Source: Arcobacter venerupis (lineage in GTDB: Bacteria > Campylobacterota > Campylobacteria > Campylobacterales > Arcobacteraceae). Taken from it: a stretch of DNA of 64,000 nucleotides. Where the stretch lies: positions 620,001 through 684,000 of the forward strand of contig NZ_CP053840.1 in assembly GCF_013201665.1 (NCBI RefSeq). Direction: 5' to 3'. A model generated the notes under the pieces. It saw nothing but the letters and a program-made list of their open reading frames with translations, searched no databases and was not told the origin of the DNA. Shown here in pieces: positions 19,719 through 37,284 of this stretch. Each line of letters starts with the position of its first letter. Within the stretch, counting starts at the first letter, position 1. The position numbers and the translations under genes are program-made.

Positions 19719-20477
19719 ATGGAAAACTATTTTGAAAAAGAGTTTAAGCTACGATATTTTGAAATGGATAACACAGGAAAAGCTTCTCCTATAACTATGA
19801 TGACATTGCTGCAAGAAACAGCAGCCGATCACTGTGCTTTTGCTGGTCATAGTTTATTGTCTCTTATGTCACAAAATTTAGGATGGGTATTACTTTCTGG
19901 AATGATGGAAATAGATAGATATCCTGAGTACAATGAAAAGATTATTATACGAACATGGCTTTCAAAATATAAATCTATCAGAGGTACAAGAGAAAACATT
20001 ATTTATGATGAACACTACAATATTATAGGGAAAGCCAAAGGGTTATGGCTTTTTTTTGATATCGAAAAACGAAGACCTAAAAAAATTCCAAATTATTTTA
20101 GAGAAAATTGGTTGTCTTGCGAGGAAACATCTTTAGATCATGATATATCAAGTACAATGAAGAGCATTAAATCCCCTCAATATCTCAATAAGTTTACTGT
20201 CAATCGCTATGATACAGACATAAATAAGCATGTAAATAATATAAGTTATTTTCATTGGCTTCTAGAATCAATACCTAAAGAGATTATAGATAACTATTAT
20301 TTATACTCTATTGATGGGCGTTTTTTATTAGAGTCACAGTATGGGGATAGTATTGTTTCTTATACAAATAAAGTTGATGGTGAAAACTCTTTTATACATG
20401 AGATTTATATAGAAGGGAATAATAATCCTTGTGCTACTGCAAAAACAATATGGAAAGCAATGAAAAGTAAAAAGTAG
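19719..20477 (+). CDS. Acyl-ACP thioesterase family protein
   Basis: The protein has 252 residues in a double hot-dog arrangement. The first repeat has LRYFEMDNTGKASPITMMTLLQETAADHC and GWVLLSGMMEIDRYPEYNEKIIIRTW, typical of the FatA-like PF01643 family. The second repeat carries NRYDTDINKHVNNISYFHWLLE with the Asn/His pair used in catalysis. It should release free fatty acids from acyl carrier protein. It starts at ATG 19719 after AAAGGAATTG. It is the last gene before the solitary IS end, so it belongs to the accessory region. Confidence 0.87.
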   Translation: MENYFEKEFKLRYFEMDNTGKASPITMMTLLQETAADHCAFAGHSLLSLMSQNLGWVLLSGMMEIDRYPEYNEKIIIRTWLSKYKSIRGTRENIIYDEHYNIIGKAKGLWLFFDIEKRRPKKIPNYFRENWLSCEETSLDHDISSTMKSIKSPQYLNKFTVNRYDTDINKHVNNISYFHWLLESIPKEIIDNYYLYSIDGRFLLESQYGDSIVSYTNKVDGENSFIHEIYIEGNNNPCATAKTIWKAMKSKK

Positions 20478-22473: not shown

Positions 22474-22506
22474 ATTTTATTTTTCTTTGATTACAACAAG
22501 GTGACA
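22474..22506 (-). promoter_or_regulatory. Pho-box promoter driving olsF
   Basis: On the minus strand TGTCACC starts at 22506, TGTAATC starts 11 nt later at 22495, and TAAAAT starts 27 nt after the first T (22479-22474). Two 7-mers at an 11-nt step upstream of a -10 without a -35 hexamer is the PhoB-activated promoter plan. The first repeat is close to the E. coli TGTCATA consensus. Confidence 0.75.
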
Positions 22507-22533
22507 AAAACATTTTGTAATCATAATATTTTT

Positions 22534-22566
22534 TGTTATCAACATGTAATCTTTTATTTTTATACT
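22534..22566 (+). promoter_or_regulatory. Pho-box promoter driving the 5'-nucleotidase gene
   Basis: TGTTATC starts at 22534, TGTAATC at 22545 (11-nt step), and the -10 TATACT at 22561, 27 nt from the first T. The -10 leaves about 20 nt of leader before the AAGGGA and ATG at 22594. It is back-to-back with the olsF box, 28 nt away. Confidence 0.78.
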
Positions 22567-22593
22567 ACGCAAAACAAAAACAAGGGAAAAATT

Positions 22594-25500
22594 ATGAAGA
22601 TACAAGTAAATAGGATATTATCCTTTTGTTTAGTGGCTTTATTAGCAGGTTGTGGAGGAGGTAGTTCTTCTTCGACTAATGAATCTTCTACATTTACAGT
22701 TGAAAGAGGATCTGTACTTAACGCAACAGTTAAAGATGCAAACGGACAAATTGCATCAAGTGTAAATGCCACAAATAGCTATACCTTTGCAAAAGAAATT
22801 AAATATCCAGTTACAGTAAGTGGTGGATTTATTGATGTGGATAATTCAGGGGATAAGAGTGTTGGAGATATTGAATTAACAACTCCATTAATGACTTATT
22901 CAGGAACAAATATTACTCTTATCACAACTGCAATTTCAGATTCAAATGAACAAACAAGAGATAATAAATTAAAACAATTAGCTCAAAGTTTAGGAGTTAC
23001 TACAGATGAATTATTAAAACTACCATCACAAAGTTATGAGAGTTCAATTTTATCAAATGAGTTATATAAAGCTTTAAAAAACAATTCAGATACAAATTTA
23101 ACACAAATTATAAGCGATTTAAATACATATGGAATTGTTACAAATTTTCAAACAAAAAAAGATTCTATTGATAAAAATAAAACTTTAAAAGAATTCGCTT
23201 TGGATTTAGAACAAGAGTATGTAGATGAATTAGTCTTAGCTGGGAAATTAAATGTTGTAACTTTCGACGACATAAAACAAAATATGAATGAGGACTCTTT
23301 TGAATTATCATTATTTCATGTAAACGATATTCATTCACATATTTCAAGTGAAGCATTAACTTACACAGTAGATGGTACTTCAAAAAGTGTTCAAACAGGT
23401 GGATATGCAAGAATCATCACAAAATTAAAAGAGTTAAAAACTGCGAATCCAAACTCTTTAATTTTAAATGCAGGGGATACTTTTCAAGGGACTTTATACT
23501 ATTCACTATTTAAAGGTGAAGCTGATGCAGCTGCTATGAATCTTATTGCTTGGGATGCATATACTTTAGGAAACCATGAATTTGATGATGGAGATGAAGG
23601 ATTAAAAAGTTTTTTAGATAGATTAAATAAAAATATTTCTGTAATTTCATCAAATGTTGTTGCTTCTGATAATAGTGTTTTAAAAAATTATTGGACTCCT
23701 TATGTGATAAAAGAAGTAAATGGACAAAAAGTAGGAATAATTGGTATTGATATTTCAGGAAAAACAAAAGATTCATCAAATCCAAGTGATGAGATAACTT
23801 TTTTAGATGAAACACAAACAGCTCAAAAATATATAGATGAATTAACACAATTGGGGGTTAATAAAATTGTTTTATTAACCCATCAAGGTTATGAAAATGA
23901 TATTACTATGGCAAACGAATTGACAGGAGTAGATGTTATCATTGGTGGTGATTCACATACTTTACTTGGAGATTATTCAAATATAGGTTTAAATAGTATT
24001 TCAAATAATTATCCAGCAAAAGTTAAATCAAAAGATAATAAAAAAGTATGTATTGCACATGCTTGGGAATATGCTCATGTTTTAGGAAATTTAGATGTTA
24101 TATTTAATAAAAATGGTGACATTGTAGCTTGTGGAGGAAATCCTTTATTACTTGTAGGAGAAGACTTAGGTGTTAAAAATAAGAATGTTGCAGTTGTAAG
24201 TGAAGATGAAACTGCACTTCAAACAATTAAAACTTATGAAGATCAAGTTGAAGTAAAAAAAGCTACACAAATTGGAATAGCAGGGCAAAAATTAGGACAT
24301 AATAGAATTCCAGGAGATAAAAGGGATGGAACATCTATTTTACCTTTAGGCAGTGACATAGCTCCAATCGTTGCAAAATCTTTTTATGATTTAAGTAATT
24401 TAGCCGATGCTTGTATTCAAAATGCAGGTGGAGTAAGAGTTGCAATTGAGAAAGGAAATATTACTTTAGGTGATGCTTACACTTTATTACCTTTTGCAAA
24501 TACTTTGTTTGAAATTAAAATGAAAGGTAGTGAGATAAAACAAGTTCTTGAAGATGCTTTAAATAATACCTATTCAGTTGATGGTTCAAGTGGATCTTTT
24601 CCTTATTCGTATGGACTAAGATATGATATTGATGTTAGCCTTGGAAATAATAATAGAATCTCTAATCTTGAAATAAAAAATAGAAAAACAGGAACTTGGG
24701 GAAATATCCAAGCTGATACTATGTATACAATTGTTACAAACTCTTTTACAGCTGGTGGGAAAGATGGTTATGTGACATTTAAAACTGTTCAAGATGAAAG
24801 AGGTAAAGGTGTTGATACATATTTAGATTATGCAATGAGTTTTGTAAAATATGTTGAAAATAAAACGTTAAATAATGAGCAAGTAACAAAATTACCATCA
24901 AGTGATCATCCAATAAAAAGTTATAAAGATGCAAATGGACAAATAATAGTTGATTCAACTGATGTAATAGCTCCAACTCTTGAAAGTGCAATTATTTCAA
25001 ATGATGGTTTAAGTATTGTCTTAACATATTCCGAAAACTTAAAAGGAAGTGTAAGTGCTAGTGATTATTCAATTAGTGGGGTAACTATAACAAATGCAAT
25101 AATAAGTGGAAATACAGTAACTTTAACACTTTCATCAGAAATTACTCAAGATAGTACACTAAGTCAAATTGAATATAATGGAACAGGTGTTACAGATGAA
25201 GGTGGAAATAAAGTAGTTATTGGAAATATTTTAACTATCACAAATAACTCAAATGCTAAAAATACAGCTCCTATAACATTTACACCAAATAGTGGAACAA
25301 CACAAGGTTCATCTGATACTTCATCTGCAATAGCTTTTGATGATAACTATATGATGGTTATTGACGATGAAGCAAATGTAATTAGATATTATTCAAGAAA
25401 AGGTTCTGATGCATTAAAAGAAATATCTTATGATGCACATGTAACAGCCGGAAAAGAGTTAGATGCAGAAGCAACAACAAAAATAGAAGATAGTATTTTT

Positions 25501-27813
25501 GTTATAGGTTCTCATTCAAATAAAAAAAGTGGTGCAGAAGAGGATAATAGAGAATACATCTTAAAATTTACAGCTGAAGATTCAGGAGTAGATACAAATT
25601 TAATATTTGCAGATAGCTATTCAAATTTAGAAAATGATTTAGTAGCTTGGGATAGTAATAATATTCATGGAAAAGGTGCAAATTATTATGGTTTTGCACT
25701 ATCGGCTCAAACAGCTGTTGTTCCTGAAAATGTAAATGGTTTTTCAATTGAAGGATTAACAAGCTCATTGGATAATACAGAGCTTTATTTAGGTTTTAGA
25801 GCGCCTTTACTTAATACAACTACAAGAAATAAAGCATTAATAGTTCCTGTAATTATATCTTCAATTATGGATGGTAGTACAACTACAAATACAGGTGCAA
25901 TTTTTGGGGAAGCAATAGAGTTAAATTTAGGTGGAAGAGCCATTCGCTCAATTGAAAAAGCTGCGGATAATAGCGGATATTTAATTCTAGCAGGTCCAGC
26001 AATGGCTTCAAAAGATGAAGTTGAAAATAATTTTAGATTATTTAGATGGAATGGTTTAAGTGGTGATGTAAATCAACCAGTTGAATTAGGTACAAATTTA
26101 GATGTTTTAAGAAATGAAACTAAAGGAAGTTTTGAAACTATAGTTGAAGTAAAAAGTACACAAACAGGAACTTGGGTACAACTATTAACAGATAATGGAG
26201 ATACTATTTGGAGTGGGAAATCTCAAGTTTCAAAAGATTTACCAGCTAGTGAACAAAAATTCCAAGGTTTTTGGGTGAAATTAGCTCAAGATGTAGTTGA
26301 TCAAACAGCACCAATTTTGGTAAATAAAACACCTGCAAATGATACTTTAGATGTTTCAGTTAGTACAAATATAGTTCTTAATTTCAACGAAGGAATAAAA
26401 GCTGGAACTGGTAATTTTATTATTAAAAAAACAGCAGATGATTCAGTTGTAGAAACAATTGCTGCAAATAGTGATATTGTTTCTTATTCATTTAACACAG
26501 TAACAATTAATCCAACACAAGATTTAGATTTTCAAACACAATATTATGTTGTTATAGAAAATAGTGCGATTAGTGATAATTATGGAAATAATTTTACTGG
26601 AATTAGTAGTTCAAGTGATTTTAAATTTACTACAAAACTAGCACCAAAAACATATTCACTTCTTATTACAGAAGTGAATTCAAATGCAAGTGGAGATGAT
26701 TTTTTTGAAATATATAATTATGGTTTAACAGATATTAATTTAAGTGGTTGGAAATGGAGTGATGATAGTGCAGATTTCGCTACAGCAACAGCATTAGGGG
26801 ATTTGACTTTAAGCGCTGGTAAAGTATTAGTTATTACAAAATCAATAGATGAAACTGCTTTTAGAACTGCTTGGAATTTAGATTCAAGTGTATCTATTGC
26901 AGCCGTTGGGGGTTCTGGTCTTGGAAAAGGTGATGCTGTAGTATTATTTGATGAATCAGGTGAAGTAGTTAGCTCATTTAGTTATAAAACTACAACAATT
27001 ACAGCTTCTGATGGAACAATTATATCTTCATCTTTAAGAGCTGATAATCAAAATATTGTTGCAGAGCACACAGGTGTAGCAGTTGGAGGAAGTGATGCAA
27101 AAGCTTCTGCTATTTGGGATGGTGTATCTGTGGTAACTCCAAAATATATCTATGCTCAAGCTGGATTATTGGATTCTTATTCTCAAACAACATCAACAAA
27201 TGGAACAGGATCTCCAGGAATTGTGGGAAAAGCAGCTTTACTTATTAGTGAAATTTCTTCAAATACAACAGAAACAACAGATTTTTTTGAGCTTTATAAT
27301 TACAGTTCAACAGATATAAATCTAAGTGATTGGAAATGGGATGATGATTCAGCTAATTTCTTGGATGCTTCAGTAAGCAATTTTGGAAACGTAACTGTTG
27401 AAGCTGGAAAAACTTTAGTTGTTTTAATTACAGCAGATGAGACTAAAATAGCAACTTTTAAAACACTTTGGGATTTAAGTGATACAGATAAAATCATAGC
27501 AGTTGCAGGGCCTGGACTTGGAAAAGGAGATGCAGCTGTAATATTTGATTCTGTAGGAAGAGTTGTAACTTCACTTAATTATGGAATAGCTGATAAAACT
27601 GCAAGTGATGGAACAATAATAACAAAATTAGGTCAAGGTAGTTCAACAAATCATACAGGAAAAGCTTTAACGGGAAGTGGAACGGATTCTACTTCAATTA
27701 TTTGGGATACAGCTTCTGCTTTATCACCTACTTATACAACAGCTGTAAGTGGAGAGTTAGGTGCTAAAACCGCAACGAATGGTAATATAGGTTCTCCCTC
27801 AATTGCAAAATAA
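22594..27813 (+). CDS. Giant multidomain 5'-nucleotidase (UshA-like) lipoprotein with lamin-tail domains
   Basis: This 1739-residue surface or periplasmic lipoprotein (lipobox LLAGC, Cys near 20) should free phosphate from nucleotides. The ATG at 22594 is chosen because the Pho-type -10 lies just before it. Order: a 200-residue N-terminal module shared with the gene at 27895; a calcineurin-like nuclease core (DIHSH 245-249, GDTFQG, GNHEFD 326-331, GGDSHT); and the 5'-nucleotidase substrate domain (about 560-760). Then come a SwmB/Ig-like domain, a propeller-like stretch (about 890-1220), an Ig-like domain (TAPILVNKTPAND) and two lamin-tail domains (near 1355 and 1550). Standard UshA is about 550 residues. 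The lamin-tail repeats, common in extracellular nucleases, suggest binding of nucleic acid or surfaces. Confidence 0.88.
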   Translation: MKIQVNRILSFCLVALLAGCGGGSSSSTNESSTFTVERGSVLNATVKDANGQIASSVNATNSYTFAKEIKYPVTVSGGFIDVDNSGDKSVGDIELTTPLMTYSGTNITLITTAISDSNEQTRDNKLKQLAQSLGVTTDELLKLPSQSYESSILSNELYKALKNNSDTNLTQIISDLNTYGIVTNFQTKKDSIDKNKTLKEFALDLEQEYVDELVLAGKLNVVTFDDIKQNMNEDSFELSLFHVNDIHSHISSEALTYTVDGTSKSVQTGGYARIITKLKELKTANPNSLILNAGDTFQGTLYYSLFKGEADAAAMNLIAWDAYTLGNHEFDDGDEGLKSFLDRLNKNISVISSNVVASDNSVLKNYWTPYVIKEVNGQKVGIIGIDISGKTKDSSNPSDEITFLDETQTAQKYIDELTQLGVNKIVLLTHQGYENDITMANELTGVDVIIGGDSHTLLGDYSNIGLNSISNNYPAKVKSKDNKKVCIAHAWEYAHVLGNLDVIFNKNGDIVACGGNPLLLVGEDLGVKNKNVAVVSEDETALQTIKTYEDQVEVKKATQIGIAGQKLGHNRIPGDKRDGTSILPLGSDIAPIVAKSFYDLSNLADACIQNAGGVRVAIEKGNITLGDAYTLLPFANTLFEIKMKGSEIKQVLEDALNNTYSVDGSSGSFPYSYGLRYDIDVSLGNNNRISNLEIKNRKTGTWGNIQADTMYTIVTNSFTAGGKDGYVTFKTVQDERGKGVDTYLDYAMSFVKYVENKTLNNEQVTKLPSSDHPIKSYKDANGQIIVDSTDVIAPTLESAIISNDGLSIVLTYSENLKGSVSASDYSISGVTITNAIISGNTVTLTLSSEITQDSTLSQIEYNGTGVTDEGGNKVVIGNILTITNNSNAKNTAPITFTPNSGTTQGSSDTSSAIAFDDNYMMVIDDEANVIRYYSRKGSDALKEISYDAHVTAGKELDAEATTKIEDSIFVIGSHSNKKSGAEEDNREYILKFTAEDSGVDTNLIFADSYSNLENDLVAWDSNNIHGKGANYYGFALSAQTAVVPENVNGFSIEGLTSSLDNTELYLGFRAPLLNTTTRNKALIVPVIISSIMDGSTTTNTGAIFGEAIELNLGGRAIRSIEKAADNSGYLILAGPAMASKDEVENNFRLFRWNGLSGDVNQPVELGTNLDVLRNETKGSFETIVEVKSTQTGTWVQLLTDNGDTIWSGKSQVSKDLPASEQKFQGFWVKLAQDVVDQTAPILVNKTPANDTLDVSVSTNIVLNFNEGIKAGTGNFIIKKTADDSVVETIAANSDIVSYSFNTVTINPTQDLDFQTQYYVVIENSAISDNYGNNFTGISSSSDFKFTTKLAPKTYSLLITEVNSNASGDDFFEIYNYGLTDINLSGWKWSDDSADFATATALGDLTLSAGKVLVITKSIDETAFRTAWNLDSSVSIAAVGGSGLGKGDAVVLFDESGEVVSSFSYKTTTITASDGTIISSSLRADNQNIVAEHTGVAVGGSDAKASAIWDGVSVVTPKYIYAQAGLLDSYSQTTSTNGTGSPGIVGKAALLISEISSNTTETTDFFELYNYSSTDINLSDWKWDDDSANFLDASVSNFGNVTVEAGKTLVVLITADETKIATFKTLWDLSDTDKIIAVAGPGLGKGDAAVIFDSVGRVVTSLNYGIADKTASDGTIITKLGQGSSTNHTGKALTGSGTDSTSIIWDTASALSPTYTTAVSGELGAKTATNGNIGSPSIAK

Positions 27814-27831
27814 ATTGAACCTCATAATAAT

Positions 27832-27858
27832 AAAAAAGAGGCTAATTGCCTCTTTTTT
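27832..27858 (+). terminator. Intrinsic terminator after the 5'-nucleotidase gene
   Basis: AAAAAAGAGGC and GCCTCTTTTTT form a perfect 11-bp stem with loop TAATT and a T tail. The next gene starts 36 nt later with no visible Pho box of its own, so it may depend on read-through. Confidence 0.88.
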
Positions 27859-27894
27859 TAGAATTTTTTTAAATATTTTAAAGTAGGAGAAAAA

Positions 27895-30204
27895 ATGTTT
27901 AAGAAAGTCTTATTAAGTGCAATTACTGCATATTTTTTAGTTGGATGTGGAGGAGGAAGTTCTTCTTCAAGTACAAGTGATACATCTACAACAATAAATG
28001 TAGAAAGAGGAGCTGTTTTAAATGCAACAGTAAAAGATGCTTCAAATCAAATAGCAATATGGAATAAAGGAACAAATAGTTATACCTTTAAAAATAGTAT
28101 AACTTATCCAATTAGTGTAACGGGTGGTTTTGTAGATATTGATAATGATGGAATTAAAAATAATTCAGATTTTGATTTAGATTTAGAGCTAAAATCAAAT
28201 AGTGGGAAAAATGTTACATTAGTTTCAACTATTATTTATAATGATAATCAAACAACTCAAAAAAATAATTTAAATATCTTAAGTCAAGAGTTCTCTTTAA
28301 GTGAAGATGAGTTGTTAGATTTACCATCATCAAAAAAAGAGTTGGCACTATTATCAAATATTATTTACAAAAATTTAGAATTAAATTCTTCGATAAACTT
28401 AGAAAATATTGTTGAATTAATCTCTTCAAAGAAAATAGATTTAAAACAAGAGTATGAAAAAATAGATTTACAAAAGTTTTCAAATCTAAGCTCAAAAGAG
28501 TTTTTAGAACAAAATGAATTAGAGACAATCAAAGAGATAAAAAACATTAAATCTTTAAGAGATACACTACCTACTTATAGTGGAAGTGATTTAACATCAA
28601 CTGAAGTTTTAAATGAAAAATCTGCATATATTTCACCTCAGTGTTATACAAAAACTCAAGATGAGAATCAAAATGTATATAATCCTTGTTTTGCATGTCA
28701 TATAAACTCAGTTGAACCAAATTATATAAATGATTGGGATTTACAAGAGAGTTATTCTTTTAGTGAAAATAGCTATAAAAATCCTTTTACAAATAGTTTT
28801 AAGGATAGAACAACTTTAGTAAATGCCATAAATGATAATCAAATACTTGAATATATAAATCAAGACAATTACAAAGATGAAGATGGGAATATTATTCTTA
28901 ATACAAAATTAAAATATGATTTGCCAAGCCAATGGGATTTTAGCTTTGATGGAGTAAAAGATGGAGTTTGGAGTGGATACATTCCTGATTGTTATTTTAA
29001 TTTTGATGATGAGGGATTTGATTTAGATAATAATGGTAATTATACAGGTTGGAGAGTTTTTGCATATACGCCTTTTTTAGGTACATTTTGGCCTACAAAT
29101 GGAAGTACAGATGATGTATTAATTAGACTTCCAAAATCTATGATGCAAGATAGTAGTGGAAACTTCTCCAAAGAGGTTTATAAAATAAATCTTGCAATTG
29201 TAGAATCAATGGTGAAAAAACAAGATGTTGAATTAGGATTTGAAGTTGATGAATCAAAATATGGTGTAGATTTAAATCATAATAATGTGATTGATAAAAC
29301 ATCAAAAATTGTATATCAATGGACTAAACCAGATGCAATTACAAACTATCCAAAGGTGATTTATTATAATTATTATGTTGGACTTGCAAAAAGTAAACTT
29401 GAAACAAATGAGTTAAATATATCACCTGGTCTTTATCCAAATGAGACAGAATTTTTACACTCTGTACGATATATAGGAATAAAAGATGATAAAAGTGGAA
29501 TAAAACTAGCAAATAGAATGAAAGAGTTAAGATATGCAAAAAAAACTACTTGGAATAACTATGCACAACTTAGTAATGCAGCTTTAAGTGAAGTAAAGGA
29601 AAAAGATACTTTTCCAGATAGATTAAGAACAATTAAGGGAAATATTGAGAGTGGTTTATCAACTGGACTTGGCTGGAATTATCAAGGATTTATAGAAGAT
29701 GCAAGGGGAAATCTAAGACCTCAAAGTTATGAAGAGACTTTATCATGTATTGGCTGCCACTCTGGAATTGGTGCAATAACAGATTCAACTTTTGCCTTTC
29801 CTAGAAAATTTGAGAATGCTGATAGTTGGTATCATTGGAGTAAAAAAGATTTAACTGGTACAAAAGATAGAATACTTTCAAATTCAAAAGGAGAATTTGC
29901 CTTTTATTTAGAACAAAATAAAGCTGGAGATGAGTTTAGAGGAAATGATGAGATAAAAAATAAATTTTTCGATGTAAATGGAGATTTAATTCAAAATGAA
30001 GTTGATAAAATTGCAAATGATATTACATATTTGATATATCCAAGTGTAAATAGAGCAATGAAATTAAATAAAGCATATAAAGTAATTGTTGATGAACAAA
30101 GCTTTATTTATGGAAAAGATGCACACATAACACCTCTAAATGATACAGTTTATGATGAGGTAGAAATAGATAAATCAACGGGAATTAGTGCTGTTAAATT
30201 CTAA
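27895..30204 (+). CDS. Diheme c-type lipoprotein of unknown function
   Basis: The protein has 769 residues. The lipobox LVGC (Cys18) is followed by a Ser/Thr linker and the same 200-residue module as the 5'-nucleotidase lipoprotein (VERGAVLNATVKDA, then a Ca-loop-like DIDNDGIKNNSD). The rest (about 240-769) has two haem-binding CxxCH sites, CFACH at 265-269 and CIGCH at 618-622, about 350 residues apart. Conserved aromatic and acidic blocks include FLGTFWPTNGSTDD and YNFDDEG-like segments. It is closely similar to the gene at 30281, which lacks the N-terminal module. I know no named family. The context points to phosphate stress; an electron-transfer or oxidative role follows only from the haem motifs. 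Confidence 0.8.
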   Translation: MFKKVLLSAITAYFLVGCGGGSSSSSTSDTSTTINVERGAVLNATVKDASNQIAIWNKGTNSYTFKNSITYPISVTGGFVDIDNDGIKNNSDFDLDLELKSNSGKNVTLVSTIIYNDNQTTQKNNLNILSQEFSLSEDELLDLPSSKKELALLSNIIYKNLELNSSINLENIVELISSKKIDLKQEYEKIDLQKFSNLSSKEFLEQNELETIKEIKNIKSLRDTLPTYSGSDLTSTEVLNEKSAYISPQCYTKTQDENQNVYNPCFACHINSVEPNYINDWDLQESYSFSENSYKNPFTNSFKDRTTLVNAINDNQILEYINQDNYKDEDGNIILNTKLKYDLPSQWDFSFDGVKDGVWSGYIPDCYFNFDDEGFDLDNNGNYTGWRVFAYTPFLGTFWPTNGSTDDVLIRLPKSMMQDSSGNFSKEVYKINLAIVESMVKKQDVELGFEVDESKYGVDLNHNNVIDKTSKIVYQWTKPDAITNYPKVIYYNYYVGLAKSKLETNELNISPGLYPNETEFLHSVRYIGIKDDKSGIKLANRMKELRYAKKTTWNNYAQLSNAALSEVKEKDTFPDRLRTIKGNIESGLSTGLGWNYQGFIEDARGNLRPQSYEETLSCIGCHSGIGAITDSTFAFPRKFENADSWYHWSKKDLTGTKDRILSNSKGEFAFYLEQNKAGDEFRGNDEIKNKFFDVNGDLIQNEVDKIANDITYLIYPSVNRAMKLNKAYKVIVDEQSFIYGKDAHITPLNDTVYDEVEIDKSTGISAVKF

Positions 30205-30222
30205 ACTTATAATATGAATAAT

Positions 30223-30255
30223 TGTTATCAATTTGTAATAAATTAGAAGTAAAAT
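30223..30255 (+). promoter_or_regulatory. Pho-box promoter driving the second diheme operon
   Basis: TGTTATC at 30223, TGTAATA at 30234 (11-nt step) and -10 TAAAAT at 30250, again 27 nt from the first T. It begins 18 nt after the stop codon of the previous gene and 58 nt before the ATG at 30281. It is the third copy of the same layout. Confidence 0.75.
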
Positions 30256-30280
30256 CATAGAAATTTTAAAGGCCAATTTT

Positions 30281-32035
30281 ATGATTAAAAGAAAAATTTT
30301 AATTTCGAATTTACTTCTAATTTCAACGTTATTTGCAAATGAAGTTAACTTAAAATCAACAAATACAACTAATCCTACAGCATACATTCCTAGTCAATGT
30401 TATACAAAAACAGTAAATGATAAAAATGAGAATATATTATATAACCCCTGTTTTTCCTGTCATATTCAAAATAAAGAACCAAATTTCACATTAAGTGATG
30501 CAGATTTACAAGAGGGATATGATTTCCCTGCACCAGCACTTAAAAATCCTTGGACAAATTTATTTAAAGATAGAACTAAAGAAGTAAATAAAATTAGTGA
30601 TGAAGAGATTTTAAAATACATTAGACAAGATAATTATAAAAATCAAAATGGTGAAATAATTTTAAAATCAAAACTTCAGAATTTAGATAATAAATGGGAT
30701 TCTAATGATAATAAAAAGTGGGATGGCTATATTCCAGATATTTATTTTAATTTTGATGATGAAGGTTTTGATAAAGATGAAAATAATAATTTCACTGGTT
30801 GGAGAGCCTTTGCCTATCAGCCTTTTTTGGGAACATTTTGGCCAACAAATGGAAGTACAGATGATGTAATGATTAGACTTTCAAAACCATTTCAAAGTGA
30901 TGAAAATGGAAAATTTGATTTAGAAGTTTATAAATTAAATTTATCAATTATTGAAGCTTTGATAAAACAAAAAACAATAGATATAAATGAAGTTGATGAG
31001 AAAAAGTATGGAGTAGATTTAAATCAAAATGGAGTTTTAGATAATTCATCTCAAATTGTATTTAAATGGGAAAAACCAAAATATGATGCAAGTACAAAAA
31101 AATTAAAAGATTTTTCAATCTCTTATGTGGGACTTGCAAAAAAAATGCTTGAAAATAATGAAATATTAATAGCTCCTGGACTTTATCCAATAGGTACTGA
31201 ATTTGCCCATACGGTTAGATATATAGATGTGGATAAAAATGAAGATATCAAAATGTCAAATAGATTAAAAGAATTTAGATATGCGAAAAAAACATCTTGG
31301 AATAAATATTCACAACTTAATAATATAGGTTTAGCAGATATTAAAGAAAAACATGATTTTCCTGATAGATTAGATGTTTATATAGGTAATTTAGAAACTG
31401 GAATAAATAATAAAAGAGGTTGGTATTTTCAAGGATTTATAGAGGATATTAAAGGTGATTTAAGACCACAAACCTATGAAGAGACACTATCATGTATGGG
31501 ATGCCATACAAATATGGGAGCAATTGCAGATTCAACTTTTGTATTTCAAAGAAAATTAGAAAAACAAAGTTTAGCTTCTGGTTGGTACCATTGGAGTAAA
31601 AGTGGATTAAAAAATATTCCAGATAAAATCTTAGATGATGGACAAACAGAATATGTAAGATATTTAAAAGAAAATAGTGCAGGTGATGAGTTCCGATCTA
31701 ACGATGAAGTAACAAATAAATTTTTTAAAAAAGATTGGGAAAAAGATACTCAAAATATTGAAAAAGACTTAGTAGCAAAACTTGACAATCCAGAAGTTAT
31801 TTTAAATCAAGCTTGGAAATTTAATATCGAAGAGATAAATAAGATAAAAGAAGATATTTCTTATCTAATCTTACCTTCAAAAGAAAGAGCTTTAGAACTT
31901 AATAAAGCTTATAAAATAATTGTAGATGAACAAAGCTATATTTATGGGAAAGATATTCATATAAAACCTACAAACAATGTTCATAAAGAGTTAGAAAAAG
32001 GAACTATGACTAACTTACAAAAGATATTAAAATGA
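30281..32035 (+). CDS. Periplasmic diheme c-type protein of unknown function
   Basis: The protein has 584 residues. It has a signal peptide (cleaved near LFA-NEV) instead of a lipobox. Haem sites CFSCH (57-61) and CMGCH (405-409) match those of the preceding paralogue in spacing, and the blocks YTKT, GYIPD, YFNFDDEGF, GWRAFAYQPFLGTFWPTNGSTDD, YGVDLN, GLYP and DEQSYIYGKD are shared. It carries an extra segment near 485-510. It is the first gene of a Pho-box operon whose next three genes follow by ATGA overlaps and look like metal uptake. Its function is unknown; the haems would be attached in the periplasm. Confidence 0.82.
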   Translation: MIKRKILISNLLLISTLFANEVNLKSTNTTNPTAYIPSQCYTKTVNDKNENILYNPCFSCHIQNKEPNFTLSDADLQEGYDFPAPALKNPWTNLFKDRTKEVNKISDEEILKYIRQDNYKNQNGEIILKSKLQNLDNKWDSNDNKKWDGYIPDIYFNFDDEGFDKDENNNFTGWRAFAYQPFLGTFWPTNGSTDDVMIRLSKPFQSDENGKFDLEVYKLNLSIIEALIKQKTIDINEVDEKKYGVDLNQNGVLDNSSQIVFKWEKPKYDASTKKLKDFSISYVGLAKKMLENNEILIAPGLYPIGTEFAHTVRYIDVDKNEDIKMSNRLKEFRYAKKTSWNKYSQLNNIGLADIKEKHDFPDRLDVYIGNLETGINNKRGWYFQGFIEDIKGDLRPQTYEETLSCMGCHTNMGAIADSTFVFQRKLEKQSLASGWYHWSKSGLKNIPDKILDDGQTEYVRYLKENSAGDEFRSNDEVTNKFFKKDWEKDTQNIEKDLVAKLDNPEVILNQAWKFNIEEINKIKEDISYLILPSKERALELNKAYKIIVDEQSYIYGKDIHIKPTNNVHKELEKGTMTNLQKILK

Positions 32036-32763
32036 GAGATTTACACGATATGTTTTTGAATTTTGTTATTGGAACACAACAAAAAATAAATCTTTTAACA
32101 AGTGATTATTTTGATAAATTAGAAGCTGGGGATAACTCAATGTTTATTTATATTTTAGCTGTTTCTTTTATCTATGGTTTAGTTCATGCCTTAGGGCCAG
32201 GACATGGGAAAATGGTAATTGCTAGTTACTTTTTAGTTAAAGGTACAAAAATGAAAGATGCTTTTAAAGCTGGATTTTTAACATCACTAATTCACACAAT
32301 TTCAGCTTTAGTAATTACCTTCACTTTATATATATTTTTTGAAAATACTATTACAAAATATTTTTCACAAATTAATACAAACATGTATAAAGTATCTGCA
32401 ATTTTTATTATATTAATTGCTTTTTTCTTGTTTTATGAAACCTATAAAGATAGAAATGAAGAAGAAAAAATACAAAGAATTGAGAATAAAAGTTTATTAG
32501 CTGTGACAATGTCCATAGGAATTGTTCCTTGTCCTGGCGTTATGTCAATAGTTTTATTTTCTATAATTTTAGGATATATAAATTTAGGTATTTTAAGTGC
32601 AATTTTTATGAGTATTGGTATGGGAATTACTATTTCTCTTGCTGCAATTATTTCAAGTCAAATAAAAAATACACAAAATAAGAATTTACACGTAATAATA
32701 AATAAAATCAGTTACCTAGGAATTTTAGTGCTATTTTTAATGGGTGCAATCTTATTAGTATGA
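32032..32763 (+). CDS. NicO/RcnA-family metal transporter
   Basis: The protein has 243 residues with about six membrane helices. It shows the NicO hallmark HALGPGHGKMV (helix near residues 55-65) and a second motif, GIVPCPGVMSIVLF (about 162-176). NicO members carry Ni or Co in either direction, and those paired with DUF1007 are often linked to zinc, nickel or cobalt uptake. It overlaps the diheme gene by ATGA at its start and the DUF1007 gene by ATGA at its end. Translation is therefore coupled and the metal probably serves the same stress response. The ion is not determinable. Confidence 0.85.
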   Translation: MRDLHDMFLNFVIGTQQKINLLTSDYFDKLEAGDNSMFIYILAVSFIYGLVHALGPGHGKMVIASYFLVKGTKMKDAFKAGFLTSLIHTISALVITFTLYIFFENTITKYFSQINTNMYKVSAIFIILIAFFLFYETYKDRNEEEKIQRIENKSLLAVTMSIGIVPCPGVMSIVLFSIILGYINLGILSAIFMSIGMGITISLAAIISSQIKNTQNKNLHVIINKISYLGILVLFLMGAILLV

Positions 32764-33242
32764 AAAAAATTACACTTTTCTTTTTAGTCAATTTAAATCT
32801 ATTTGCTCATCCTGATTATTTTTTGGATACGAGTTTACAAATTAATGAAAATAGTATAAAAAATCAATGGAAATTTGATGCTTTAAATTCAAAAATTTTG
32901 CTATTTGATTTTGATAAAAATAAAAATAAAATATTAGATGGGAATGAAAAACAGGAGTTTTTAAATACACATTTTTTTAAGTTAAAAAGCAACAAATTTA
33001 ATATTTATTTAGAAAATGAAGAACAAGAATTTGAAATAGTTCCTCAAAATGTAGATGTACTTTATGAAGATAAAAGATTATCAATAATTTTTGATATTCC
33101 TTTTTCTTTAAAAGGAGATACAACTTTTTGTACTATGGATGAAAAAATTTATTTAGCTTATAAATTAAATGATCTAAAAACCAATTTTAAAACAGATATT
33201 CAAAGTAGTGAATATGATTATTGTATAGGAGTTACAAAATGA
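32760..33242 (+). CDS. DUF1007 family periplasmic protein
   Basis: The protein has 160 residues. The signal peptide ends at LFAHPDYFLD, so His becomes the first mature residue, as is usual for DUF1007 metal-binding proteins. The body has KNQWKFDALNSKILLFDFDKNKNKILDGNE, a Ca-loop-like DFDKNKNKILDGNE. Partner of the NicO transporter upstream (ATGA overlap), presumably handing metal to it. A final TFCTMDEK and DYCIG give two Cys. It overlaps the next gene by 4 nt. Confidence 0.82.
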   Translation: MKKITLFFLVNLNLFAHPDYFLDTSLQINENSIKNQWKFDALNSKILLFDFDKNKNKILDGNEKQEFLNTHFFKLKSNKFNIYLENEEQEFEIVPQNVDVLYEDKRLSIIFDIPFSLKGDTTFCTMDEKIYLAYKLNDLKTNFKTDIQSSEYDYCIGVTK

Positions 33243-33547
33243 AAAAGTTATTAATAATGTTATTTGTATGTATAGATTTATTTGCTCACCCAGTAAATTA
33301 TACTATTGATTTAGTTGTATCTTATGATGAAAAAGCAAAAGAGGCAAAAATTATTTGTCAAAGTAATAGCAAAAATAAATGTGGTTTATTTAATATAAAT
33401 TTATTAGATAAAGATGATAAATCTATAGCTGATGTGAAATTTCCTTTTTTAAAAGAGTTTGTTTTAATTAAAACAGAAACGAAACCTTCAAAGTTAGATT
33501 TTTACCTTAGAGACGTTCCTGAACATAAATATACAAAAATTTTCTAA
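33239..33547 (+). CDS. Small periplasmic protein of the NicO/DUF1007 operon
   Basis: The protein has 102 residues. The ATG at 33239 overlaps the DUF1007 stop as ATGA. An upstream ATG at 33221 lies inside the previous gene and would spoil the signal peptide. The signal peptide ends LFAHPVNYT, again exposing an N-terminal His-Pro pair. Two Cys (ICQSNSKNKCGLF) may form a disulfide. The first 18 residues and cleavage site mimic DUF1007, suggesting a metal-binding accessory. I recognise no family. Confidence 0.68.
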   Translation: MKKLLIMLFVCIDLFAHPVNYTIDLVVSYDEKAKEAKIICQSNSKNKCGLFNINLLDKDDKSIADVKFPFLKEFVLIKTETKPSKLDFYLRDVPEHKYTKIF

Positions 33548-33658
33548 TAATTAAGATACCACTAGAAATTATAAGAAAAAAGTATATTTACTTATCCTGT
33601 CTTGTTTACGGACTTTAAACGTAAAATACAATTATTTTTTGGTTACCACATTGATAGA

Positions 33659-33691
33659 TGTTATCAACTTGTAATTTGTTGTTTTTATAAT
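33659..33691 (+). promoter_or_regulatory. Pho-box promoter driving the PhoX-phytase gene
   Basis: TGTTATC at 33659, TGTAATT at 33670 (11-nt step) and a perfect -10 TATAAT at 33686, 27 nt from the first T. The ATG at 33724 follows AAAGGAA with a short leader. Because a PhoX phosphatase is a classic phosphate-starvation gene, this copy anchors the identity of all four boxes. Confidence 0.82.
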
Positions 33692-33723: not shown

Positions 33724-36700
33724 ATGAAAAAGTCGTATTTAAGTCTAAGTGCATGTGCTTTATTAGCTACATTCGCATTTGTAGGATGTGGAGGATCTGG
33801 AAGTTCTTCATCATCAGGTGGCAGTACTGCTAGTACAGGAACATTACAATTAAATCCATATTTAGCAAATATTGATTATAAATGTGGTACAAAAACAGGA
33901 ACTACTAATGCTAATGGAGAATATTCATATGTAGCAGGAGATACTTGTACTTTTGTAATTGGTGGAAAATCACTAAATGCAACGGGAAGTTCAAATCTTA
34001 CTATTGAAGAACTTGCAAGTCAAAATGAGGGTGTTTCAAGCGAAGTATTATCTGCGTATATTATTGCAAAAATGTCTAAAAAAACTGGTCTAACTTATGA
34101 TATAAATAATTTACCAACAACTTTTGAATTACCAGATGACATTGAGGGAGAAACATCAAATGCTTTATCATTTGATACTTTTGAAAATTTAAAAGCTAAA
34201 TTAACTGATGAAACATTAAAAACAGATATTGATAGTGTTAAGTTTGACGTTGCAAATAGATTTGCAAAAAGAGTATCTTTATCAATTGAAGCAGTTGCAA
34301 CACCAATAACTGATGGTGAGAAATTAACTCAACAAGTTGCAACAAAAGCTTATGTAAATGGTGAAAAACAAGATATTTCATATACACAAGTTATGAAAAC
34401 AACAATGGCAGATAATGGTGAAGTTTTAGGTCAATCTAAAGATTATCAAGATAATCCAATTACATTTTCAGATGGAAGTCCTTATATTTGTAATGGTACA
34501 AATGCAGGTGAAGGTTCAGGAATGGACTTTACATCACTACATAATGTTGATGGTAAATTATTTGCAATTTCTCAATTTGAGTGTGCTTTAGGTTCAATGT
34601 ATATGGTTGAAATAGATCAAAATAAAGATACTGGAAAACTTACACCTAAAACTAATACTTTACAATATATCTCTCAAAAAGCAGGATTTGGTGGATTTGT
34701 ACACTGTGCTGGTCAAAGAACTCCTTGGAATTCTCATCTTTCTTCAGAAGAGTATGAGCCAGATTCAAAATCACCAGATGGAAACTCATATTATACTGAG
34801 TTAGCAAAATATTGGGGTGGAGATGCAAATAAAGTAAGTGCATATTATTATGGATGGACGCCAGAAATTAAAATAGAAAATAGCACTCCTGTGTATTCAA
34901 AACATTACGCTATGGGAAGATTTTCACATGAATTAGCATATGTAATGCCAGATAATAAAACTGTGTATCTTTCAGATGACGGTACGAATGTTGGTTTCTT
35001 TATGTTTATTGCAGATACTGAAAAAGATTTGAGTTCAGGAACATTATACGCAGCTAAATGGAATCAAACATCACAAGCTGGAGTAGGTTCTGGAGAAGCA
35101 GATTTAACTTGGATTAATTTAGGTCATGCAACTAATTCTGAAATCAAAACTATTCTAGACCCTGATGGAGATGTAACTACAAACGATGCTCCAACTTTTG
35201 CAGATATTTTTGATTCAGTTTCTCCATCAAATGGAGTTTGTGATAGTGGATTTACTTCTGTAAATACAAGTGTTGGGCAAGAGTGTTTAAAAGTTAAAGC
35301 TGGTATGGATAAAACAGCTTCAAGATTAGAAACTAGAAGATATGCAGCAATCAAAGGTGCAACTACTGAATTAAATAAAGAAGAAGGAATTACTTTTGAT
35401 AAAAATTCTGGAAAATTATATGTTGCAATAAGTGATGCTAGAAAAGGTATGGAAAATAGTACTACTAGCTCATATGATATAGGTGGAAATAATGATATTA
35501 AAATTGCACCTAATAAATGTGGTGCAGTTTATGCCCTTGATGTTTCAACTACTACAGTAAAAGATACATTAAATGTAGCAATAGAATCATCTTACGTAGT
35601 TAAAAATATGAAAGGTATTGTTGCTGGTATACCAACAACTTATGATAGTAGTTCACCATATGCAGGAAATTCTTGTGATGTAAATGGAATTTCAAGTCCT
35701 GATAATCTTTCATTCTTAGAAAATTCTAGTACTTTAGTTATTGGTGAAGATACTTCTTATCACCTAAACAATGTAGTATGGGCATATAATACTAAAACAA
35801 CAGAATTAACAAGAACATTTACTACACCACTTGGTGCTGAAACAACTTCTGCATTTTGGTTCCCAAATCTAAAAAATGGATTTAGTTATTTAGGAGTTGT
35901 AACTCAACATCCAAATTTAAATACAACAGATGGTGGAGAATCAGCTTATGGATATGTTGGGCCATTTAAAAATTTAACAGATTTAAAAGAGAGTACACCA
36001 CAAGTATCTAAAAGTGGAGAATCTTTACCTTATACTGTTTTAAAAGATGATTTATTAGATGGTGCAGGACAAGCTTTTGAAATTAGAAATGGTGGATATG
36101 GTTCAGCTATGGCAGCAGATCCTGCTAATACAAATAGTTTCTATGCAATAACAGATAGAGGTCCAAATGCAGATTATACAGGAACACAAGGAAAAGGTAA
36201 AAAATTCCCAGTACCTGATTATACTCCAAGAATTGGACACTTTAAAGTTACATCAACAGGTGAAGTAGTAAAAATTGAAGAAATTTTACTAAAAGATAGA
36301 GATGGAAATAATATTACAGGTTTACCAAATACAAGTGCTTTAGGTGGAACAGGTGAAATTCCTTATGATGTAAATGGAAATGTAATTGTTGATTCTAAAG
36401 GAAATATGAGATTAGATGATTATGGTTTAGATAGTGAAGGTTTAGCTACTCTTAAAGATGGAACATTCTGGATTAGTGATGAATATGGACCACATATTGT
36501 TCATTATGATGCAACAGGTAAAGAGATAGAAAGAATTAATCCATTTGCAAGTGATTCAAGAAATAAATATACTTTACCAGCTGAGTTTGCTAATAGAAGA
36601 GCAAATAGAGGGATGGAAGGTTTAGCTATTACGCCTGATCAAAAAACTTTAGTTGGAATTATGCAATCAACAATGTATAATCCATCAAGTTCAGTAAAAG

Positions 36701-37284
36701 ATCTTGATGTTACAAGAATAGTATCAATCAATTTAGAAAATGGAACAGTTAAACAATACTTATATAAACAAGAGAAAAAACAAAATGCTAACTCAGAATT
36801 AGTTGCAATTGACAATGATACTTTCTTAGTTTTAGAAAGAGATGAAAATTTCTTAAAAGATTCAGGAGTTGAAAATACTCAAAAAAATGTATATAAAATT
36901 AAATTAAGTTCAGGTACTGAACTTGAAAATATTACATTATCTACTGGTATGGTTCAAAATAGTTCTTTAGGATTAACAATTGATGGTAGTACTTTAGAAG
37001 AGTATGCCTTAGCAAATGGTTGGTCAGGATTAGAATCAAAAGGAATCAAACCAGTTGAAAAAACTTTAGTGTTAGATATGGTTGCAAAAACAAACTATCC
37101 ACATGATAAAATGGAAGGTTTATGGCTTATTAACAACTCAACACTTGGTGTTTTAAATGATGATGATTTTGCAGTAACAGCGACAGATGGTATATTAGAA
37201 CAAAAATATCTTGATACTAATAAATCAGTAATTGATAGTAATGTTTTATATATTATTGATGGTTTAGATTTAAGTGCAAATTAA
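33724..37284 (+). CDS. phoX: PhoX alkaline phosphatase fused to an esterase-like phytase domain, lipoprotein
   Basis: The protein has 1186 residues. The lipobox is VGC (about residue 22), followed by GGSGSSSSSGG and an N-terminal beta domain (about 35-160). The PhoX/DUF839 phosphatase (about 200-750) shows CAGQRTPWNSHLSSEEYEPD, MGRFSHELAYVMPDNKTVYLSDDG, EEGITFDKNSGKLYVAISDARKG and SPDNLSFLENSS; this family uses Fe and Ca. The C-terminal part (about 765-1186) is the phytase-like esterase domain: GYGSAMAADP, YAITDRGPNADY, DSEGLATLKDGTFWISDEYGPHIVHYD, NRGMEGLAITPDQ and DKMEGLWLIN. Single PhoX is 450-700 residues, so this is a true fusion. It should free phosphate from diverse organic esters outside the cell. 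Confidence 0.9.
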   Translation: MKKSYLSLSACALLATFAFVGCGGSGSSSSSGGSTASTGTLQLNPYLANIDYKCGTKTGTTNANGEYSYVAGDTCTFVIGGKSLNATGSSNLTIEELASQNEGVSSEVLSAYIIAKMSKKTGLTYDINNLPTTFELPDDIEGETSNALSFDTFENLKAKLTDETLKTDIDSVKFDVANRFAKRVSLSIEAVATPITDGEKLTQQVATKAYVNGEKQDISYTQVMKTTMADNGEVLGQSKDYQDNPITFSDGSPYICNGTNAGEGSGMDFTSLHNVDGKLFAISQFECALGSMYMVEIDQNKDTGKLTPKTNTLQYISQKAGFGGFVHCAGQRTPWNSHLSSEEYEPDSKSPDGNSYYTELAKYWGGDANKVSAYYYGWTPEIKIENSTPVYSKHYAMGRFSHELAYVMPDNKTVYLSDDGTNVGFFMFIADTEKDLSSGTLYAAKWNQTSQAGVGSGEADLTWINLGHATNSEIKTILDPDGDVTTNDAPTFADIFDSVSPSNGVCDSGFTSVNTSVGQECLKVKAGMDKTASRLETRRYAAIKGATTELNKEEGITFDKNSGKLYVAISDARKGMENSTTSSYDIGGNNDIKIAPNKCGAVYALDVSTTTVKDTLNVAIESSYVVKNMKGIVAGIPTTYDSSSPYAGNSCDVNGISSPDNLSFLENSSTLVIGEDTSYHLNNVVWAYNTKTTELTRTFTTPLGAETTSAFWFPNLKNGFSYLGVVTQHPNLNTTDGGESAYGYVGPFKNLTDLKESTPQVSKSGESLPYTVLKDDLLDGAGQAFEIRNGGYGSAMAADPANTNSFYAITDRGPNADYTGTQGKGKKFPVPDYTPRIGHFKVTSTGEVVKIEEILLKDRDGNNITGLPNTSALGGTGEIPYDVNGNVIVDSKGNMRLDDYGLDSEGLATLKDGTFWISDEYGPHIVHYDATGKEIERINPFASDSRNKYTLPAEFANRRANRGMEGLAITPDQKTLVGIMQSTMYNPSSSVKDLDVTRIVSINLENGTVKQYLYKQEKKQNANSELVAIDNDTFLVLERDENFLKDSGVENTQKNVYKIKLSSGTELENITLSTGMVQNSSLGLTIDGSTLEEYALANGWSGLESKGIKPVEKTLVLDMVAKTNYPHDKMEGLWLINNSTLGVLNDDDFAVTATDGILEQKYLDTNKSVIDSNVLYIIDGLDLSAN

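Follow-up and report, generated by a model that had tools for sequence, protein, structure and literature searches.

Why should genes for a membrane-lipid synthase, a nucleotidase, a diheme cytochrome and a phosphatase-like protein share one type of promoter? The question is raised by a 64,000-base stretch (hereafter the window) of the Arcobacter venerupis genome (bases 620001-684000 of contig NZ_CP053840.1, which at 3,209,085 bases makes up the whole genome), in which four promoters of common layout precede olsF, a 5'-nucleotidase gene, a diheme protein gene and a gene for a divergent PhoX. An earlier reading of the same DNA (the original prediction) had taken these promoters for a phosphate-starvation (Pho) regulon under PhoB or PhosR. 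The analysis reported here leads to the same view and, as judged from sequence, the four sites are with high confidence promoters of a PhoB-type phosphate-starvation regulon.

All four sites lie at the coordinates and on the strands originally read (Table 1), and each consists of a 7-mer, 4 nt, a second 7-mer, 9 nt and a -10 hexamer, with the 7-mers at an 11-nt step and the -10 beginning exactly 27 nt past the first T, as had been claimed. They had also been called identical, which is true of layout and spacing but not of their sequences, which differ. The -10 hexamer ends 22-32 nt from the start codons of olsF and the nucleotidase, diheme protein and phoX genes. A looser pattern matches the window four times, each without mismatch, while shuffled windows allowed up to one mismatch gave a mean of 0.75 and a maximum of 3 matches, and none of 100 reached four. 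The strict pattern used hereafter, TGTYAYC-N4-TGTAATN-N9-TANNNT, was written after the four window sites had been read, and these are its only exact matches in the genome. A weight matrix built from 37 sites, the four among them, scored them at 26.7-31.4 bits, compared with 8.0 for the next window site and 9.9 for the best site in the reversed window, i.e. at least 16.8 bits over the best background for sites that were in the training set. An Rfam scan of the window at gathering scores gave no match.

Elsewhere in the genome, a one-mismatch scan yielded three further matches. One precedes pstS2 of a pstS-pstC-pstA-pstB-phoU operon and one precedes ppk2 (TIGR03707, 374.3 bits, cut-off 301.8), both with the -10 in register. 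The third, in register as well, stands before an LpxH-like phosphoesterase gene followed by a patatin phospholipase gene (L043:4168-5680; G000:C1 3053167-3054679), and the Pho-type box at this pair suggests Pho-controlled lipid turnover alongside OlsF. Two-mismatch matches before pstS1 and pstC1 score 21.7 and 14.0 bits; among the named sites of this genome only the latter was outside the matrix training set. Both belong to pst cluster 1, with the gene order pstS, EAL-GGDEF gene, pstC, pstA, pstB, phoU, PsiE-family gene, PhoB-like regulator, histidine kinase. The original prediction had proposed that a genome scan should hit pst, phoU and phoBR, and near-matches with the -10 in register were indeed found before both pst-phoU operons, one of which ends in phoB/phoR-like genes.

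The 7-mers alone tell a similar story. TGTNAY/TGTAAY pairs at an 11-nt step occur 19 times in this genome and 3 times in the reversed control. Seven of the 19 have a -10 in register, and all seven are window sites or lie before pst or LpxH-like genes; the motif is therefore not spread at random through the genome. The other 12 pairs, scoring from -11.6 to 11.0 bits, were set aside as Pho promoters: seven are inside open reading frames (ORFs), two are not followed by an ORF start in the next 350 nt and three (L319, L322 and L325) stand 75-114 nt before ORFs with scores of -4.4, 0.3 and 8.1 bits. The 8.1-bit pair (L325:1948; G000:C1 2575347), 114 nt before a 146-residue ORF that resembles a mechanosensitive channel by eye, was accordingly not counted as a Pho promoter.

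A separate feature of pst cluster 1 is the gene between pstS1 and pstC1, which encodes an EAL-GGDEF-CBS protein (L040:9037-10767; G000:C1 ~239036-240766) and is followed by a Pho box that stands before pstC1. A homologue occupies the same position in genome G054 (L119), and a possible link between cyclic di-GMP and phosphate control is indicated by this placement.

The strict pattern and its reversed control were scanned over 104 genomes of the Arcobacteraceae, giving 39 matches in 24 genomes and a single match, respectively. Outside the A. venerupis genome there are 35 exact matches in 23 genomes, compared with that one control match over all 104. The gene downstream is olsF in 16 cases, phoX in nine, a diheme protein gene in seven, phoD in two, and pstS, a nucleotidase gene (the window's own) and a sodium/phosphate (Na/Pi) transporter gene in one each, so that 37 of the 39 matches directly precede members of this set. 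Of the remaining two, one precedes a Cj0069-family gene and the other an olsF from which it is now separated by an IS110-family gene; except for the latter, split by insertion, the matches are located at gene starts. It is because of this named gene set, together with the near-matches before the pst-phoU operons, that the sites are read as an ordinary PhoB-type Pho regulon.

Individual promoters are also conserved. By search threshold, olsF is present in 76 of the 104 genomes (a few matches being weak or partial), and among the 30 best-scoring loci, some of whose sites were in the matrix training set, an equivalent of promoter 1 scoring at least 12 bits lies within 220 nt of olsF in 26, the window's own included, compared with none in the reversed controls. 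The position of promoter 3 is kept in G010, G056, G057, G068 and G083, and promoter 4 has a counterpart upstream of phoX in G010, G021, G022, G058, G068, G083 and G099. A divergent pair of boxes with one facing olsF recurs in G021, G022, G083 and G099, where the partner box precedes diheme or phoX genes. Furthermore, among 100 distinct regions upstream of divergent phoX genes (two training loci excluded), 27 reach at least 8 bits and 11 at least 12, with none in the reversed controls. The promoters provide a ready definition of the Pho regulon for the Arcobacteraceae, with ornithine-lipid synthesis predicted to be placed directly under Pho control. Searches of open-licence literature turned up no earlier account of a Pho box in the Arcobacteraceae, nor of the pairing of PhoX with the diheme protein discussed below.

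Three loci from these scans deserve separate mention. In G083 (L108:6807-8006), an IS110-family transposase gene now separates olsF from its conserved Pho promoter. In G085 (L123:5624-6640), a strict Pho box precedes the Cj0069-family gene (DUF6815, ATP-grasp-like), a possible lead to the function of that family. An apparent PhoX with a twin-arginine translocation (Tat) signal under a box in L111 and L121 was rejected, the protein of L111 being PhoD by Pfam and that of L121 its close homologue.

Several observations, on the motif and on its regulator, weigh against a Pho regulon. With up to two mismatches the pattern occurs 28 times in the genome and 25 times in the reversed control, and therefore only the strict form together with gene context is informative; the remaining 19 two-mismatch matches, listed with their ORFs, fall mostly within ORFs. 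The ppk2 box sits within the last bases of the upstream gene, 80 of the 104 family genomes have no exact match, and 4 of the 30 olsF loci have no 12-bit box (two reach 6.3 and 7.4 bits, while G083 and one other have none). Upstream of divergent phoX genes, 73 of the 100 regions are below 8 bits with a matrix that is Arcobacteraceae-derived. A chance likeness of AT-rich promoters could produce such a background, two-mismatch matches being about as frequent as in the control, but at zero mismatches the family scan stands at 39 to 1 and the four sites stand clear of background by the margin given above. Together with the shuffled windows this bears out the claim that the spacing is unlikely to be accidental, and chance is a next to negligible explanation.

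Less remote, albeit still very unlikely, is that the sites belong to another OmpR-family regulator, serving for example envelope or redox stress, and that the phosphate genes are there only incidentally. Tandem repeats are also binding sites of OmpR-family regulators, and the 43 Trans_reg_C matches in the genome leave room for another regulator. Moreover, the candidate PhoB falls short of equivalog level: PhoB is its best NCBIfam model at 175.9 bits, under a cut-off of 296.2, and PhoR is the best model of the neighbouring kinase at 133.8 bits versus 334.2. Against another regulator stand the near-matches before both pst operons and ppk2, the exact matches in relatives before pstS, phoD and Na/Pi transporter genes, and the location of the PhoB-like gene inside one pst operon. 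A PhoB-type regulon is thus retained, and its likely regulator is this PhoB-like protein (L040:4259-4933; gene at 234258), which has receiver and winged-helix domains. Three other OmpR-family genes were considered as PhoB and rejected, with no Pho box of at least 8 bits in any of their regions: those at 1547572 (the best match, L042; followed by what appears by eye to be a Trk-like gene), 689742 (L046) and 526511 (L045).

In E. coli promoters activated by PhoB, the -10 lies just downstream of the box. The E. coli box itself, of the CTGTCAT type, has two 7-mers four bases apart that form an 11-nt direct repeat (PMC4415409). The window sites share with it the 7-mer pair at an 11-nt step and the TGT-A core, but they differ in their consensus (TGTYAYC/TGTAATC) and in a gene content of OlsF, diheme protein and divergent PhoX. 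A PhosR box was reportedly described by Wosten in 2006. In Campylobacter jejuni, PhosS/PhosR is a phosphate-responsive two-component system controlling pst and phoX, according to the accessible parts of PMC9449129 and PMC3197622. A 33-nt layout of this kind is shared, as read before canonical phoX in genomes of family f3 (probably Campylobacter), where, unlike in the window, the 7-mer is (A/T)GTTTC(C/T) and PhoX is the Tat-type enzyme, which carries Arg385 and lacks a diheme neighbour. The recognition-helix stretch KTVNVAIKRLKAK is common to the PhoB-like protein and its matches in six Arcobacteraceae genomes, while the best PhoB-like matches in five f3 genomes, only putatively phosphate regulators, carry KTINIALTRLRNK or a close form. 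Canonical phoX promoters in these five read (A/T)GTTTC(C/T)-N4-(A/T)GTTTCC-N9 followed by a hexamer resembling TATACT, or closely similar forms. Of 23 f3 regions upstream of canonical phoX, 8 contain a GTTTC pair at the 11-nt step, with the -10 in register where counted, and some of the others have other repeats. This is consistent with, though not proof of, one PhoB lineage whose DNA word changed between the Arcobacteraceae and f3.

A working model of the regulon follows familiar lines. The PhoB-like response regulator, whose gene lies towards the end of a pst-phoU operon, would bind as a dimer to the two 7-mers 11 nt apart, replace the -35 contact and recruit RNA polymerase to the -10 sited 9 nt downstream. 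At low phosphate the block would then make a phosphorus-free membrane lipid via OlsF, the nucleotidase would cut nucleotides, and the divergent PhoX and its phytase-like domain would cut phosphoesters, while the diheme cytochrome and the NicO/DUF1007 metal system would be made as phosphatase accessories. We infer from sequence the phosphate response, PhoB binding, the enzyme activities and the accessory role of the diheme and NicO/DUF1007 proteins; the high confidence expressed above covers the Pho regulon and not this accessory role.

Table 1. Promoters and genes of the predicted Pho block (window coordinates).
Feature	Position	Strand	Details
Pho promoter 1	22474..22506	-	TGTCACC-N4-TGTAATC-N9-TAAAAT; before olsF, -10 end 22 nt from ATG
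Pho promoter 2	22534..22566	+	TGTTATC-N4-TGTAATC-N9-TATACT; before nucleotidase gene
Pho promoter 3	30223..30255	+	TGTTATC-N4-TGTAATA-N9-TAAAAT; before diheme-NicO-DUF1007-orf operon
Pho promoter 4	33659..33691	+	TGTTATC-N4-TGTAATT-N9-TATAAT; before divergent phoX
olsF, bifunctional ornithine lipid synthase, 569 aa	20742..22451	-	NCBIfam NF052615 824.8 bits, cut-off 620; PF19576 and PF13444
Lipoprotein-like 5'-nucleotidase/NAD-nucleotidase-like enzyme with lamin-tail domains, 1739 aa	22594..27813	+	PF02872, PF00149, PF00932
Diheme c-type protein, long lipoprotein-like form, 769 aa, two CxxCH	27895..30204	+	Sub-threshold cytochrome P460 match
Diheme c-type protein, 584 aa, two CxxCH	30281..32035	+	No Pfam, NCBIfam or PDB-sequence relative
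NicO-family metal permease	32032..32763	+	PF03824 70.1 bits
DUF1007 protein	32760..33242	+	PF06226 54.9 bits
Small, probably secreted protein, found with NicO-DUF1007	33239..33547	+	No Pfam or NCBIfam family
Divergent PhoX with C-terminal phytase-like domain, 1186 aa, lipoprotein-like	33724..37284	+	PF05787 84.0 bits (gathering 24), PF13449 172.9 bits

The genes behind the promoters largely agree with the original prediction. The OlsF-type lipid synthase is matched at equivalog level, and the two genes singled out as phosphate genes, for the 5'-nucleotidase and PhoX, are both downstream of their promoters, although the PhoX is of a divergent branch and has no Tat signal. The nucleotidase scores 425.4 bits with the nadN model, slightly under the cut-off of 436. 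Promoter 2 probably also drives the gene for the 769-residue diheme protein, given a gap of 81 nt after the nucleotidase gene, and the content of the third promoter's operon is now specified as diheme cytochrome, NicO, DUF1007 and a small protein. In Vibrio cholerae, OlsF has been connected with low-phosphate ornithine lipid formation (PMC12186959, as far as its available text goes). The family and, by prediction, the link to low phosphate are shared with the window, which differs in that a Pho box directly precedes olsF in many Arcobacteraceae, an arrangement for which no report was found in the open-licence literature.

What kind of enzyme is this PhoX? A survey of PF05787 and the diheme protein across 298 genomes of the class separated two groups, with 27 genomes carrying the standard type (more than 350 bits when intact, less in a few broken copies) and 34 carrying only proteins of 50-95 bits; the window's PhoX falls in the latter group, and no genome has both types. 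A Tat motif is visible in 23 of the 27 standard-type loci, the other four having broken or incomplete N-termini, and among 113 divergent ORFs with a complete start, two match a crude Tat pattern, the start being apparently over-extended in each. The window's PhoX has a lipobox and no twin arginine. Six positions, C179, E194, E273, D292, E387 and D479 (numbered as in Pseudomonas fluorescens PhoX, from the PDB alignment), are kept in all 22 distinct standard and all 116 distinct divergent sequences, while position 385 is Arg in each of the former and Lys in each of the latter. Metal-site residues of PhoX were reportedly identified by Yong in 2014, and their numbering agrees with the PDB alignment. 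A predicted model of the window's PhoX domain (predicted local distance difference test, pLDDT, 90.0) matches the P. fluorescens structure 4a9v with Z 26.7 over 438 aligned residues at a root-mean-square deviation (rmsd) of 3.3, and the next other propeller reaches Z 21.9 over 269. The protein is thus a member of a separate, divergent PhoX branch, as read from its six kept metal positions, Lys in place of Arg385 and the rarity of the Tat motif. It shares its predicted fold and metal-site positions with P. fluorescens PhoX (4a9v, 3zwu) but differs from it in the Lys, the lipoprotein-like signal for general secretory (Sec) export, the diheme neighbour and the C-terminal phytase-like fusion. Surveys based on PF05787 would either fail to tell this branch from the Tat-type enzyme or, with a stricter threshold, overlook it.

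It is rather improbable that the divergent protein is some other propeller enzyme and not a phosphatase, as its low PF05787 scores and the invariant Lys385 might suggest. All six metal-site positions checked are kept, and divergent phoX genes have Pho boxes and pst-operon neighbours: in G317 the gene lies between phoU and a phoB-like gene, and in G261 a 470-residue ORF, a phoB-like gene and phoU are in line with it, and an olsF-like gene is divergently oriented. Furthermore, the demonstrated Fe/Ca phosphatase Psip1 also has Lys at PhoX position 385, is Sec-exported and has no D292 equivalent (PMC11098088, available part). Compared by this description only, the divergent branch resembles Psip1 in the Lys, Sec export and PhoX-like site, but it keeps D292 throughout, and no cytochrome link is described for Psip1 in that part of the source. 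In G242 (L290:3530-5382), the frame of the divergent phoX is broken into two ORFs, with no diheme neighbour.

The divergent PhoX is almost always accompanied by the diheme protein, a family for which no Pfam, NCBIfam or PDB-sequence relative was found save a sub-threshold cytochrome P460 match (PF16694, 23.5 bits versus gathering 27) in the 769-residue protein, with none listed for its 584-residue paralogue. Alignments A1 and A2 show no variation in either CxxCH motif of the latter. When the species collection was searched by peptide pattern and tblastn, 166 of 227 candidate stretches were confirmed, and the best 80 loci were analysed; most are Campylobacterota by title, and the others include Gammaproteobacteria, Deferribacterota and records titled Geobacter, Turneriella and Caldithrix. 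Of the 76 loci counted, 73 have exactly two CxxCH, two have one and one has three. Divergent PhoX is also encoded in 73 of these 80 loci, within 300 bp of the diheme gene in 69 (counted without a nested-ORF filter), the other four gaps being 450, 1223, 2084 and 2253 bp. Looser counts give a PhoX-like ORF in 76 of 80 and 73 of 74 pairs within 300 bp; of the four loci then left without PhoX, L149, L191 and L196 have the diheme ORF less than 700 bases from a contig end, and L204 has 3.3 kb upstream of it without PhoX. Among the 298 class genomes, the diheme protein is present in 30 of the 34 with divergent PhoX and in none of the 27 with the standard, Tat-type enzyme. Only one of the 264 genomes without divergent PhoX has it, as a broken copy (G346), and the co-occurrence has a Fisher p of ~1e-35, ignoring the relatedness of genomes. 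By place, 32 of 37 divergent phoX genes are no more than ~2 kb from a diheme gene; the five exceptions are those of G317, G326:C12, G261, G321 and G242, and the first and third of these sit among Pho genes instead. Across the Campylobacterota, and in bacteria of other phyla that cycle sulfur and metals, this branch of PhoX is tied by co-occurrence to a cytochrome without a name in the libraries searched.

The meaning of this tie is less certain. The main rival to a role as redox partner is that the diheme protein is unlinked to PhoX chemistry, being a separate enzyme that shares the starvation regulon and acts, for example, on nitric oxide, hydroxylamine or peroxide, as P460/c'-beta-like domains can; this is a serious contender, albeit short of probable. 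The predicted model (pLDDT 87.9) has a weak likeness to cytochrome P460/c'-beta in one domain (~130-428; Z 5.4, 136 aligned, rmsd 3.3), which with the sub-threshold Pfam match favours such an enzyme, although the protein differs in its two CxxCH, its length of ~560 residues and its score below the Pfam cut-off. A Foldseek search of the model against the PDB returned no match at E <= 0.001. Tree distances of PhoX and the diheme protein agree weakly (rho 0.24, permutation maximum 0.19, n = 73), which also suits a separate enzyme, and for this reason co-evolution was not used as support for a partnership. On the other side stand the co-occurrence by PhoX type and the close spacing of the genes in 69 of 73 loci, in several phyla.

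That the diheme cytochrome is a redox partner of the divergent PhoX is a tentative and rather doubtful proposal. The Tat pathway carries folded proteins; a Sec-exported PhoX would have to bind its metals once it has left the cytoplasm. Ca and Fe(III) are the metals used by the reference PhoX and PhoD enzymes (PMC5768637, in the portion available). Iron would tend to be ferrous in low-oxygen, sulfidic habitats, and a dedicated cytochrome oxidising or holding it could solve the problem of metal loading. In its fullest form, likewise unlikely as it stands, the proposal is of a redox-coupled PhoX branch in which a Sec-exported Lys385 phosphatase would have its iron site assembled or kept ferric outside the cytoplasm by the diheme cytochrome, as a new maturation system of the Pho regulon. 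If true, Fe/Ca phosphatases could work in such habitats, and phosphate scavenging in oxygen-poor waters would depend on a redox partner.

The NicO-DUF1007 pair could supply metal to the nucleotidase or PhoX. It presumably resembles the zinc-uptake pair ZevAB, a likeness for which a search of open-licence literature gave no confirming paper; NicO is near the diheme gene in only 6 of the 80 loci. Near olsF lies an acyl-ACP thioesterase-like gene (window 19719-20477), with no box of at least 6 bits upstream in the matrix scan. Meanwhile, the nucleotidase and the 769-residue diheme protein (22594-30204) have a similar N-terminal lipoprotein-like segment, VERG(S/A)VLNATVKDA, which is also present in L106 and L115.

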